Of a stretch of 64,000 bases of DNA, positions 7,619-60,463 are shown piece after piece. The position numbers were made by a program, and so were the translations under genes. The stretch covers positions 1-64,000 of the forward strand of contig DAIDHX010000071.1 in NCBI GenBank assembly GCA_027451885.1, read 5' to 3'. Under the pieces are notes generated by a model, which saw only the letters and a program-made list of their open reading frames with translations, did not search any database and was not told where the DNA came from. Each line of letters begins with the position of its first letter. The first letter of the stretch is position 1. The stretch comes from Planctomycetales bacterium (GTDB lineage: Bacteria > Planctomycetota > Planctomycetia > Isosphaerales > Isosphaeraceae).

Positions 7619-9292
7619 ATGGACAAGTTGGACGAGGGGCTCAAGACGCTGCTTGACCTCGGCAAGCGGCGTGGGTTTTTGACCTTTGACCAGGTCAACG
7701 ACTATCTCCCTGACGAGGCGGCGAGCCCCGAGCGCATCCACAACCTGCTCGAAACCCTCGACGAGATGGGCATCGAGCTCATCAACGAGGACGAGGCTGA
7801 AGCACGCAGGCTCACCTCCGGCGACAGCGACGAGGAACCTGACGACGAGGCCATCGACGAACAGGCCGAGGAAGAGGACGGCGAAATCACCCCCGAGGAT
7901 CTCGACGAGATCTCACGGCGAATCGATGACCCCGTGCGTATGTATCTCACCCAGATGGGCGAGATTCCCTTGCTCACACGGGAACAGGAAATCAATCTGG
8001 CCAAGCGGATCGAGATCACCCGCAAGCAGTTCCGCGGCAAGGTGCTCGAGTGCCATTACGCCCTGGTTCAGGCCGTTGATACACTTCGCAAGGTGCATGA
8101 AGGCGAGCTCCCCTTCGACCGCACCATCAAGGTTTCGGTCACCGAGAATCTCGAAAAAGACCAGATCCTCGGCCGTATGCAGCACAACCTGGGCACGCTC
8201 AAGCCACTCATGGAAGCAAACGTACGTGAGTTCAAGGAGGTGATCCGGGAACGTGACAAGCGCACTCGCGCTGGACTCGTGCAGCGGATCCGCCGCCGCC
8301 GGCTCAAAAATGTGATGCTGGTTGAGGAGCTCTCGATCCGGACCCAGAAGATTCAGCCGCTGATGAAGCGGCTCGAGCAGGTCGCCATCCGGATGAATGA
8401 GCTCAAGGCTCAGCTCAAGGAGTTCCGCGCTGGCCGAGGACCCAGGGACGAGCGGGCGAACGTGGTCAAGGAACTCAAGGATCTGATGCGAATCACCCTT
8501 GAGAATCCCAAGTCGCTCACCAAGCGCGTCCATCAGATGAACGTGCTCTTCCGCAAGTATGAGCAGGCCAAACGCGAGCTCTCCGGCGGCAACCTGAGGC
8601 TTGTCGTCTCGATTGCCAAGAAATACCGCAACCGCGGCCTGTCCTTCCTCGATCTGATTCAGGAAGGCAACACAGGGCTCATGCGTGCGGTGGACAAGTA
8701 CGAATACCGCCGGGGGTACAAGTTCAGCACCTATGCGACATGGTGGATCCGGCAGGCGATCACGCGGGCGATCGCTGATCAGGCGCGAACGATCCGGATC
8801 CCGGTGCACATGATCGAGACGATGTCCAAGTTGCGGAACGTCTCCAAGAAGTTGCTCCAGGAAAAGGGTCGCGAGCCAACGATCGAGGAAACGGCACGCG
8901 CGGCCAACATCTCGGTCGAGGAAACGCGCAGGGTGATGAAGATCTCGCGGCACCCAATCTCGCTCGACAGGCCGGTCGGCGAAAGCGAGGACAGCTACTT
9001 CGGTGACTTCATCGAAGACGAAGCTGCCGAGAGCCCGATCAACGCGGCCACGCAGGAAATGCTCAAGGAGAAGATCGACTCGGTGCTCAAGACGCTGACC
9101 TATCGCGAGCGAGAGATCATCAAGTTGAGATACGGTCTCGGCGATGGTTATACCTACACGCTTGAAGAAGTGGGGCGGATCTTCAAGGTGACGCGCGAGC
9201 GTGTTCGGCAAATTGAGGCCAAGGCGGTTCGCAAACTGCAACATCCGGTGAGGAGTCGACAGCTCGAGGGTTTCCTCGAGAGCACAGGCTGA
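7619..9292 (+). CDS. rpoD: Primary RNA polymerase sigma factor (sigma-70/SigA)
   Basis: About 557 aa. Region 1.1-like sequence (1-75) is followed by a very acidic linker, region 1.2 ([16 protein letters not shown]) near 105, a non-conserved charged insert of roughly 150 residues, region 2 near 323-385 ([25 protein letters not shown]), region 3, and region 4 at about 493-545 ([12 protein letters not shown]). All promoter-recognition regions are present, so this is the housekeeping sigma. The start at 7619 has GGGGAGG nine bases upstream; the ORF opening at 7445 overlaps dnaG and is spurious. The consensus-like promoters found in this window fit recognition by such a sigma. A terminator follows at 9301. 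Confidence 0.95.
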
Positions 9293-23020: not shown

Positions 23021-23797
23021 CTACTTTTCGGCCTGATGATAGCGCCGATAGAGATGCCCGAGGCCGAGGTCGTTGATCTCTGCCTCAACATCCTCGATTC
23101 GGGCAGGGTGGATGGTTTCTCTCAACTCTTGGACAAGCAGGTCAATCCATTTGGCGCGAGCGCGCTGGAGACTCTTACGAAAAGCCTCGGGGGTGACGGC
23201 GGTCTGGGTGAGCTTACCCAGCTTTTCGGCAATTTCCTCGATCGAGGCATCGGGATGGTCGCGGCGGAGTTGGAGCACGGTGGAATAACGGTTCTTGGGA
23301 TTGTCGACCTGGTAGCGCTCGAGCCTGCGCCAAACGCGATTGAGCACGGTTTCGCGCCAGACTCGATCGAAGTCCTGATCGGTTTGTTCTGGATCGACAA
23401 TATCGCCGGGCGGAAGGCTCTGGAGTTTCCGGCTACGAAAATGATCGATGATTAGCCTGTGCAGGACTGTCCGAAGGTAATCGCGGAACCGCCCCTTGCT
23501 GCGATCCGCCCCCGCGAGCTTACCGCCCAGGAGCTTCTTCCAGAATTCCTGAACGACCTCGTCGGCGAGGTTCTTATCGCGGACCTTGAGGTTGATGTAG
23601 CGGGTCACTGCGTCCAGGTAGCGAGCGACCAGATCCTCCATGGCAGCCTGGCGCTGAGGGCCGGGCGAGTGGGCCTGCGAGATCGTGGTCCACATCGTTG
23701 TGATTTCAGTGAGTCCCTGGGAGGACTTATCTGCGTCTGGCGCGGAAGCCGCCATGGCTTCGCCGGACGCGTCGTCGCTTCGTCCCGTTGCCGCCAT
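23021..23797 (-). CDS. ECF-type RNA polymerase sigma factor
   Basis: 258 aa. Residues 55-125 carry sigma region 2 (DLVARYLDAVTRYINLKV, then a FRDYLRTVLHRLIIDHFRSR helix). The middle is a charged linker, and about 165-225 resembles a diverged region 4 (ASIEEIAEKLGKLTQTAVTPEAFRKSLQRARAKW). This matches the large sigma-70 family group common in planctomycetes. No anti-sigma factor, kinase or WD40 partner gene is adjacent. I chose the ATG at 23797 because GGAAGAG precedes it; the ATG at residue 35 (MWTTISQA) is also plausible. Its upstream region contains a parS-like site. Confidence 0.8.
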   Translation of the reverse strand: MAATGRSDDASGEAMAASAPDADKSSQGLTEITTMWTTISQAHSPGPQRQAAMEDLVARYLDAVTRYINLKVRDKNLADEVVQEFWKKLLGGKLAGADRSKGRFRDYLRTVLHRLIIDHFRSRKLQSLPPGDIVDPEQTDQDFDRVWRETVLNRVWRRLERYQVDNPKNRYSTVLQLRRDHPDASIEEIAEKLGKLTQTAVTPEAFRKSLQRARAKWIDLLVQELRETIHPARIEDVEAEINDLGLGHLYRRYHQAEK

Positions 23798-56504: not shown

Positions 56505-56533
56505 GTGTTATCACGTGCGTACACATGTGTCAA
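56505..56533 (-). promoter_or_regulatory. Possible promoter for the 113-aa hypothetical gene
   Basis: Minus strand TTGACA (perfect), 17-base spacer, TAACAC (weak -10). It also contains the palindrome ACACATGTGT at 56521-56530. Confidence 0.4.
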
Positions 56534-56630
56534 GCCGTCTGCGAAGCCCGGCCGACATCGTGTGAAATCTGTTGCTCCAGGACAACGCACAGGTGCGCCC
56601 GATGTTCCGCGACCTTTGCAACGCGGGATT

Positions 56631-56660
56631 TTGACCCCTGCCGCTGGTCGCCGGTAAAAT
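56631..56660 (+). promoter_or_regulatory. Sigma-70-type promoter for efpL
   Basis: TTGACC (56631-56636), 18-base spacer, TAAAAT (56655-56660). Transcription would begin near 56667, 50 bases before the GTG start, which argues against the upstream start at 56525. Confidence 0.6.
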
Positions 56661-56716
56661 CGCATGACGTCTTTGAACCCCCACTTGCTCTCGTCTCGCA
56701 GAAAGGCCTCGACGCC

Positions 56717-57289
56717 GTGGTTCCCGCCAAGGACTTCAAGCGCAGGATGGTCGTGGAAATCGAAGGTGCGCCGCACATGATCGAACAGATTCAGGTGCAG
56801 ACGCCGTCGGCCCGAGGTGCGGCAACGCTCTACAAAATCAAGGCCCGGAACCTGAAGACCAAGAATCGCATTGAGAAAACGTACCGCGGCACCGATTCGC
56901 TCTCGGAATCAAGCTTCGAGCGCAGGCCCGTGCAGTTTCTTTACCGCGACCCAGAAGCGTTCCATTTCATGGATTCAGAGTCGTTCAACCAGTTCTCATT
57001 TACCCTTGAGGACCTGGGCGAACAGGCCTCGTTCATGACCGAGAACATGGCCGACATCGAGGCCCTTGTGGTTGATGACGAGGTGATCGCGATTGAGCTG
57101 CCCGACACCGTCGACCTGCCGATTGCGGAGACGGCTCCAGGCGTTCGAGGCAATTCCGCGACCGGGCGCACCAAGCCGGCGACACTGAGCACGGGCTTCA
57201 TTGTGCAGGTTCCAGAGCATCTCGAACCGGGCACGCTCGTTCGCGTCGACACGCGGACCGGCGAGTATCTCGGCCGGGCGAACTCGTGA
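56717..57289 (+). CDS. yeiP: Elongation factor P-like protein (YeiP/EfpL)
   Basis: 190 aa. Three EF-P domains are recognisable: a KOW-like N-domain (FKRRMVVEIEGAPHMIEQIQVQTPSARGAATLY region), a central OB domain (RRPVQFLYRDPEAFHFMD), and a C-terminal OB domain (VDLPIAETAPGVRGNSAT...KPATLSTGFIVQVPEHLEPGT). The loop tip reads PSARGAATLY, so Arg occupies the position that is the modified Lys in EF-P. This is the YeiP/EfpL signature, and the factor relieves ribosome stalling at difficult peptide sequences. The start is GTG at 56717, supported by the family N-terminus and a promoter 50 bases upstream. Confidence 0.9.
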   Translation: MVPAKDFKRRMVVEIEGAPHMIEQIQVQTPSARGAATLYKIKARNLKTKNRIEKTYRGTDSLSESSFERRPVQFLYRDPEAFHFMDSESFNQFSFTLEDLGEQASFMTENMADIEALVVDDEVIAIELPDTVDLPIAETAPGVRGNSATGRTKPATLSTGFIVQVPEHLEPGTLVRVDTRTGEYLGRANS

Positions 57290-59237: not shown

Positions 59238-59626
59238 GGCTTGCTCCAGACGTCACGAGGCATTCCGCTTTGACGTCTCATTCTCCGAGGTCACCCGTCC
59301 AACGCAAGGAATCTGTCCGGTTCCCTTGAGGTAGGACGAGAGAGCCCTGGCACCATTGACTGCACGCACGCGTGGTTCGTATCATTGGGTCATTCAAGAA
59401 CGAAATTGACCTCGATGTTTGGTTTGGATTTGATAAAGAGTGTCGTGGTGGCGAATGCGGGGTCGGCATCCTAGATTAAGTGCGGTAGAAGGTGGGCGTG
59501 CGATCGATTCGGGCGATTTGCTCGTATTCTTGGAAGTAGGGTGGTTGCGGTCTGACCGGATTGGCCGATGGAAGGCAATAGGATTGGTGTAAAGCCAGGG
59601 CGATTCGACACCAGAAGGTGGTGATC
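59238..59626. other. Divergent intergenic region before the sigma-like gene
   Basis: 389 bases. A possible plus-strand promoter is TTGACC (59406-59411), 17-base spacer, TTTGAT (59429-59434). An AGAAGG at 59613-59618 would serve a GTG start at 59627. No other element was recognised. Confidence 0.45.
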
Positions 59627-60463
59627 GTGGGCGTGGGCGACGACGGGAAAGCGCGAGCTCGGCGTGAGTATCGGCCGAGCCTTGAGGGTCTGGAGGCGGT
59701 GCGGCTGTTGTCGGCCGGCCAGACTCAGGCGTTCTCGCACGTATCGCCCTCGCTGGAGAGTAACTCCGCGGGGGGAGACGGCGCGGAGCCGTCGGCCCAT
59801 CGCGTGCGGGAGTCGCTGGCGAAGGCCGCGTGGGACGCTGCGCTCGTTGAGTCGAGCGTGTCGGACCTGCTGGCCGAGCAGCCCGCGGCGGTCTCGAAGT
59901 CTGAGCCGACGATTCAGGCGCCGAGTGATCCCGCCTCGGTTTCCACCGGTCTTGCTCAACTTGGCAAGTATTTGAATCGAGCCTGGTACCGCGCGGGAAT
60001 CCCCACGCAGTATCACGACGATAGCTCGCAGGCGGTCTACGAAACCCTGCTCAGGACAATGGGGCGGCCGCGCTTCGAGTCGCTGGTCTCAACGGTGGGC
60101 GTGTCGCGCGTCAAGGACGTCTTCAATCGCGACACGAGCCAGGGCGTTGCATTCTTCCGCGCGGTGGATATGGTGAAAAAGCGGGCTCAGCGTGAGCGGA
60201 TCCACACGTCGCTGGATGCTGTGAATGCGTCGGCCGATCTTGCGCGGCAGGAGCACTCCAGCTCGCTGCGCGAGGCCCTGCGCGAGGCGATCGCCCACAA
60301 TCTGAGTGCCCGCGAAGCCGCGCTGATCCAGGACACGCTCGCCGGCAAGACGCCCGCGGAGATCGCCAGCTCCTGGGGTGTCACTCCCAAGACCGTTAGC
60401 AACGAAAAGTCCCGCGTTCTGCAAAAACTGCGGGACGCACTCGTCGATCACGAGCTGAACTGA
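59627..60463 (+). CDS. Sigma-70 region 4-like protein with surface-motif-like N-terminus
   Basis: About 278 aa. The C-terminal 60 residues (LSAREAALIQDTLAGKTPAEIASSWGVTPKTVSNEKSRVLQKL) are a helix-turn-helix typical of sigma region 4 or LuxR-like regulators. A middle section (YHDDSSQAVYETLLRTMGR, VAFFRAVDMVKKRAQRER) resembles a reduced sigma region 2. Oddly, residues 12-30 read RREYRPSLEGLEAVRLLSA, close to the LExLExRxLLSA motif of extracellular planctomycete proteins. GTG at 59627 has AGAAGG eight bases upstream; GTG at 59618 or 59621 is possible. It is followed by several overlapping small genes. Whether it binds RNA polymerase is unknown. Confidence 0.65.
   Translation: MGVGDDGKARARREYRPSLEGLEAVRLLSAGQTQAFSHVSPSLESNSAGGDGAEPSAHRVRESLAKAAWDAALVESSVSDLLAEQPAAVSKSEPTIQAPSDPASVSTGLAQLGKYLNRAWYRAGIPTQYHDDSSQAVYETLLRTMGRPRFESLVSTVGVSRVKDVFNRDTSQGVAFFRAVDMVKKRAQRERIHTSLDAVNASADLARQEHSSSLREALREAIAHNLSAREAALIQDTLAGKTPAEIASSWGVTPKTVSNEKSRVLQKLRDALVDHELN

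Follow-up and report, generated by a model that had tools for sequence, protein, structure and literature searches.

An ECF-type sigma protein of Isosphaeraceae opens with a conserved N-terminal motif resembling the LEPR-xLL export signal

Within a 64,000-nucleotide stretch of contig DAIDHX010000071.1 from a Planctomycetales bacterium (GCA_027451885.1; hereafter the window), one gene (59627..60463, + strand) encodes a protein that by its sequence is an ECF-type member of the sigma-70 family with regions 2 and 4, and that begins with a motif resembling the LEPR-xLL N-termini of extracellular planctomycete proteins. This pairing of an export-motif-like N-terminus with a sigma-type protein had been noticed in a first-pass annotation and is borne out here, by 25.2 bits with a matrix of LEPR-xLL N-termini and by a match to the ECF model TIGR02937 at E 2.2e-10. 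We read the gene, tentatively and at somewhat less than an even chance, as a core single-copy ECF sigma factor of the Isosphaeraceae that would be controlled by its N-terminal extension and tethered or captured through the export-type motif.

The open frame spans 59618..60463 (+) and offers GTG codons at 59618, 59621, 59627 and 59633; AGAAGG lies about 8 bases 5′ of the GTG at 59627, the most likely translation start, from which 278 residues are encoded. The product consists of five parts, all on the + strand: the LEPR-xLL-like N-terminal motif ARREYRPSLEGLEAVRLLSA (59657..59716, residues 11–30), a fast-evolving linker mostly predicted to be disordered (59717..59824, residues 31–66), a short WDAAL island (59825..59866, residues 67–80), a second fast-evolving linker (59867..59926, residues 81–100) and a sigma 2–sigma 4 core (residues 102–278). 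The core comprises a sigma region 2-like helical domain with the region 2.2 D..Q motif (59930..60205, residues 102–193) and a sigma region 4-like helix-turn-helix (HTH) domain (60227..60460, residues 201–278). W69, D70 and A72 of the WDAAL island are nearly invariant. Elsewhere in the window, an EF-P-like frame (56525-57289, +) carries about 65 extra residues before its EF-P domain, probably because the list of open reading frames starts it too far upstream.

The protein had been described at first pass as sigma-region-4-like, which is correct for the region 4 that it contains but too narrow: the match to TIGR02937 (the NCBIfam ECF model) covers model positions 28-165 of 165, so that region 2 is present as well, in agreement with the AlphaFold and Foldseek results. 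The score of 40.4 bits (41.5 when the genome was searched) lies just below the 42.9-bit cut-off. D132 and Q135 of the D..Q motif are invariant across 33 orthologues and align with the D..Q of the other ECFs of the genome, which holds 73 sigma-70-family matches in all; two more of these lie in the window, at 8573-9244 (+) and 23150-23644 (-). An AlphaFold model (mean pLDDT 78, most core blocks >90) has two helical domains, together with a helix at residues 17–35 over the N-terminal motif and another at residues 58–75 that precedes and overlaps the start of the WDAAL island. The best Foldseek matches were ECF sigma factors, headed by SigL of M. tuberculosis; the region-4 domain alone superposed well (TMt 0.76-0.82 to 3hug chains), and full-length TM scores against ECF sigma factors were low, which in the predicted structure probably stems from a different placement of the two sigma domains.

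The N-terminal motif RREYRPSLEGLEAVRLLSA (residues 12–30) is genuine and under strong purifying selection. The pattern R-x-Y-x-P-x-[VLI]-E-x-[LM]-E-x-[LVM]-R-[LM]-[LF] occurs in all 34 distinct orthologues from Isosphaeraceae whose 5′ end is complete, a set whose filter required much of the motif pattern and removed only sequences cut by a contig end; divergent orthologues fetched without the pattern filter carry the N-terminal motif as well. The residues Y, P and first E are invariant across the clade, and the second E and Arg-26 nearly so. Orthologues were present in nearly every Isosphaeraceae genome searched, the sample including Singulisphaera acidiphila, Aquisphaera insulae and Tautonia sociabilis, and no homologue within the orthologous clade lacked the first 35 residues, the observation that the first-pass annotation had named as a sign of a misplaced start. 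The genome survey that it had proposed found the same fusion throughout, with the motif on the sigma gene in all 45 Isosphaeraceae genomes: a motif-profile search recovered 43 of them at E <= 0.001 and only a handful of places elsewhere at that threshold, and the remaining two (G007 and G024) have divergent copies on the sigma orthologue. In G007 we also observed a 38-codon frame (L130, G007:C44:72060-72119) that stops right after a sigma-type motif, KRYRPMLEWLEILRVLVGW, and is perhaps a gene remnant.

Pooled codon comparisons gave a pN/pS of 0.18 for the motif, 0.68 and 0.81 for the two linkers, 0.18 for the WDAAL island and 0.11-0.13 for the core; the low value over the motif, together with its conservation, indicates that it is translated and functionally constrained. 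If the likeness were due to chance, or the start were misplaced, residues 1–35 would be unselected or untranslated, an explanation that could draw on the start codons at the motif end, which are GTG or TTG only in nearly all orthologues. Set against this are the pN/pS of the motif, its fixation in 45 genomes and a purine-rich, ribosome-binding-site-like sequence directly 5′ of the start in many orthologues, and we regard the explanation as refuted, with hardly any weight left to it. Domain shuffling had been put forward as a source of the N-terminus; a recent event is not supported, the motif–sigma architecture being fixed across the whole family. An amphipathic membrane-binding helix was rejected, as the hydrophobic moment of the predicted N-terminal helix did not exceed that of shuffled sequences.

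How closely the motif approaches LEPR-xLL itself can be stated more precisely. The published pattern is RRLxxExLExRxLLA (Studholme 2004, as given in PMC8567305), and the same source, again citing Studholme 2004, only infers that LEPR-xLL serves as an export signal. The original description of residues 12–30 as an instance of LExLExRxLLSA holds for a real, non-random likeness but not for the arginine. A matrix trained on the N-termini of 17 extracellular-type proteins encoded in this genome, which themselves score 35.6-48.6 bits, gave the sigma protein 25.2 bits, against 7.3 bits for the best of 2000 shuffles of its N-terminus (0/2000 reached its score). The core of its motif, LEGLEAVRLLSA, carries V at position 7, where LEPR-xLL has R, and an R one place further on, at position 8; position 7 is V, L, M or I in all sigma orthologues read, whereas Arg-7 is invariant in the 17 own-genome LEPR-xLL members, which had been picked by a pattern demanding it. 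One genus is without the shifted Arg (DSLCLL, SISLLN). Judged from the aligned family, the Arg shift is fixed and not noise.

Profile searches gave a divided answer to the HMM check suggested at first pass, in which the sigma model matched as described above. PF07595 matched neither the sigma protein nor its N-terminal pieces, and this model is insensitive here, as genuine-looking members from the same genome also stayed below its cut-off of 25.5 bits (best 20.3); NF012209, for the LEPR-8K sub-type, did not match the sigma protein either. An HMM of the own-genome LEPR-xLL proteins matched it marginally (E 0.0126), and hhalign placed the sigma motif on the LEPR-xLL profile ungapped and in register (probability 88%, E 2.9e-6), a likeness that covers about 20 positions and includes the basic run and RP. 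Thirty other sites in the genome outscore the sigma motif with the LEPR-xLL profile; those read are extracellular-type N-termini with [LVIF]Ex[LM][ED]xRx[LV]L after a basic run, and a reverse search with the sigma-motif profile likewise retrieves extracellular-type N-termini. Literal membership in LEPR-xLL is ruled out by the absent Arg-7 and by the failure to reach the PF07595 cut-off. Because the Arg shift is fixed and the curated models are unmatched, we call the motif, on its sequence, an LEPR-xLL-like variant and not a member: it shares with LEPR-xLL/Planc_extracel (PF07595) the N-terminal place, the basic run and the [LV]ExLE....LLS core in register, and differs in having V/L/M at position 7 and Arg at position 8 and in sitting on a sigma-type protein. 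An ELWxxDGT-repeat protein of extracellular type (L126:1378-3087 (+)) opens with the Arg-shifted RYLPEFETLELVRLLST, so the Arg difference is not confined to sigma proteins; VERLESMLLLST and MEGMEAMVLLSG, both without the canonical Arg, open other extracellular-type proteins.

When neighbours were compared between loci, no conserved anti-sigma gene adjoined the sigma gene: the genes upstream vary (S15-type peptidase in some cases, Gfo/Idh/MocA oxidoreductase in others), and in the window TerC lies downstream. A cognate anti-sigma next door is ruled out by these unconserved neighbours, which makes the N-terminal extension the likely regulator. Such regulation could be wholly internal, the motif and the WDAAL helix forming a built-in anti-sigma-like or partner-binding element of a cytoplasmic sigma factor, and the likeness to LEPR-xLL being convergence on a short, charged, leucine-rich helix. 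The replacement of Arg-7 throughout the sigma family, the unmatched curated models and the presence of a second conserved helix further along (WDAAL) would all fit this account, and N-terminal extensions have already been proposed to regulate planctomycete ECFs (PMC8103513). It accommodates less readily a likeness that stays in register over some 20 positions with basic run and RP, the occurrence of the Arg-shifted variant on an extracellular-type protein and a signal-peptide-like segment at the same end of the sister clade described below; we consider it the main rival, though a rather doubtful one.

That sister clade is represented in the same genome by a protein on another contig (G000:C200) with 36% identity to the 59627..60463 product, and comprises one gene per genome in the Isosphaeraceae and several related families, one of them probably the Gemmataceae. 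When members beyond the class were sought in 199 genomes drawn from the phylum, only the source genome itself returned a match to it. In a profile comparison, 159 columns of the two clades' cores aligned (99.8%), and a tree set both apart from other ECFs (support 99/98) with the motif-bearing clade as one group (98/93), although long branches leave the exact join of the two clades unsure. Directly before region 2, every sister-clade member read has a basic stretch and a hydrophobic segment of 13-15 residues (Kyte–Doolittle 1.5-2.5), often with an AxA-like end, as in MKKKAKLTGHRGYVTALLVGTALWTLASSAADAAA; visual inspection and hydropathy were the basis for likening it to a Sec signal peptide. The segment has a pN/pS of 0.22 against 0.21 for the region-2 core. 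In a control set of 30 of the 73 sigma-70-family matches in the genome, neither feature had a comparable counterpart, the motif score being at most 3.3 bits and the N-terminal hydropathy at most 1.25. Two sister clades of sigma-type proteins with different export-type N-termini are the strongest argument that the resemblance is meaningful.

Such N-termini would also be expected if this protein and its Sec-like sister were exported and acted outside the cytoplasm, their sigma function gone. In the sister clade (L100:1423-2112 (-), G000:C200; L093-L112, L174-L213), YCxxCW...DCTQ lies near the signal-peptide-like N-terminus, with C60 and C77 invariant and C63 nearly so, a pattern that could be a disulphide or metal site. 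These conserved cysteines, the export-type N-termini of both clades and the borderline sigma-model scores of the protein and its own-genome paralogue would suit a loss of sigma function. However, both clades keep the D..Q motif for RNA-polymerase binding and the HTH with little or no variation, another sister-clade member (L093) reaches 54.9 bits and so passes the ECF cut-off, and the fold matches ECF sigma factors; we therefore think exported proteins devoid of sigma function distinctly unlikely. On whether the protein is a cytoplasmic sigma factor, which the earlier annotation had questioned, the sequence points both ways: the polymerase-binding D..Q and the HTH are kept, yet the sister N-terminus resembles a signal peptide.

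Under the preferred reading of a tethered or captured sigma factor, the N-terminal extension, and not a neighbouring anti-sigma, would set the activity of the ECF-type protein. The motif would be recognised by the LEPR-xLL export or sorting apparatus or by the envelope membrane, and as long as there is spare export capacity the sigma factor would be held there, or taken up and removed. Once the apparatus is occupied or disturbed, cutting or displacement within the flexible linker of 60-70 residues would free the factor into the cytoplasm, and the sister clade would follow the same scheme for the Sec route through its signal-peptide-like segment. What the sequences show is the architecture, its conservation and selection, the likeness of the motif and a sister clade with Sec-like N-termini; that the protein binds the export apparatus, is tethered and released, and drives transcription is what we infer. 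That the motif is under constraint similar to that of the sigma core, with both linkers drifting, argues for tethering; the absence of Arg-7, the loss of even the shifted Arg in one genus, the unmatched curated models, the marginal genome-profile match (E 0.0126) and an N-terminal helix of no notable amphipathicity count against it. A bolder version, which we rate as rather unlikely, would have planctomycete initiation factors with export signals, LEPR-xLL in one clade and Sec in the other, whose sub-optimal signal (the shifted Arg) serves as a gauge of secretion capacity: held or exported while the route is free, the factor would become available to RNA polymerase only on saturation of the route. 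In the mitochondrial unfolded protein response, the transcription factor ATFS-1 bears a weak import signal and becomes active only on failure of import; provided that the export-capacity model is right, ATFS-1 would be an analogue in mechanism only, being a eukaryotic bZIP protein unrelated to the sigma protein.

Among bacterial systems, ECF48/52/53, ECF36 and IutY are ECFs that are joined to membrane-spanning regulatory segments and that proteolysis activates (PMC8999054). They resemble the present protein as sigma factors that bear their own membrane-linked regulator; their extensions, however, either lie at the C-terminus or, if N-terminal, contain DUF2275 and 3-4 transmembrane helices (PMC8999054), whereas the present protein has a single short export-like motif and lacks transmembrane helices. 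Comparable by description are the former groups ECF87-ECF89, planctomycete ECFs with N-terminal extensions of no known mechanism that share the sigma 2–sigma 4 core, the extension, the distribution and the absence of an adjacent anti-sigma; an export-like motif is not described for them in the available part of PMC8103513. In the literature, as far as its text was accessible, we found no description of export-signal-like extensions on planctomycete ECFs. In the planctomycete Tuwongella, it was the detergent-soluble rather than the Tris-soluble fractions that yielded several sigma factors (PMC8567305), which is compatible with, but not specific for, membrane association of sigma factors.

The use that planctomycetes make of LEPR-xLL and the control of planctomycete ECFs by their N-terminal extensions are both open questions, and PMC8103513 says so of the latter. 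A fixed LEPR-like motif on a core sigma protein, together with a signal-peptide-like sister, ties both to one testable gene and suggests that these sigma factors may be wired to the export machinery of the cell. If this is true, a transcription factor would here use an export signal of its own to report on protein export.
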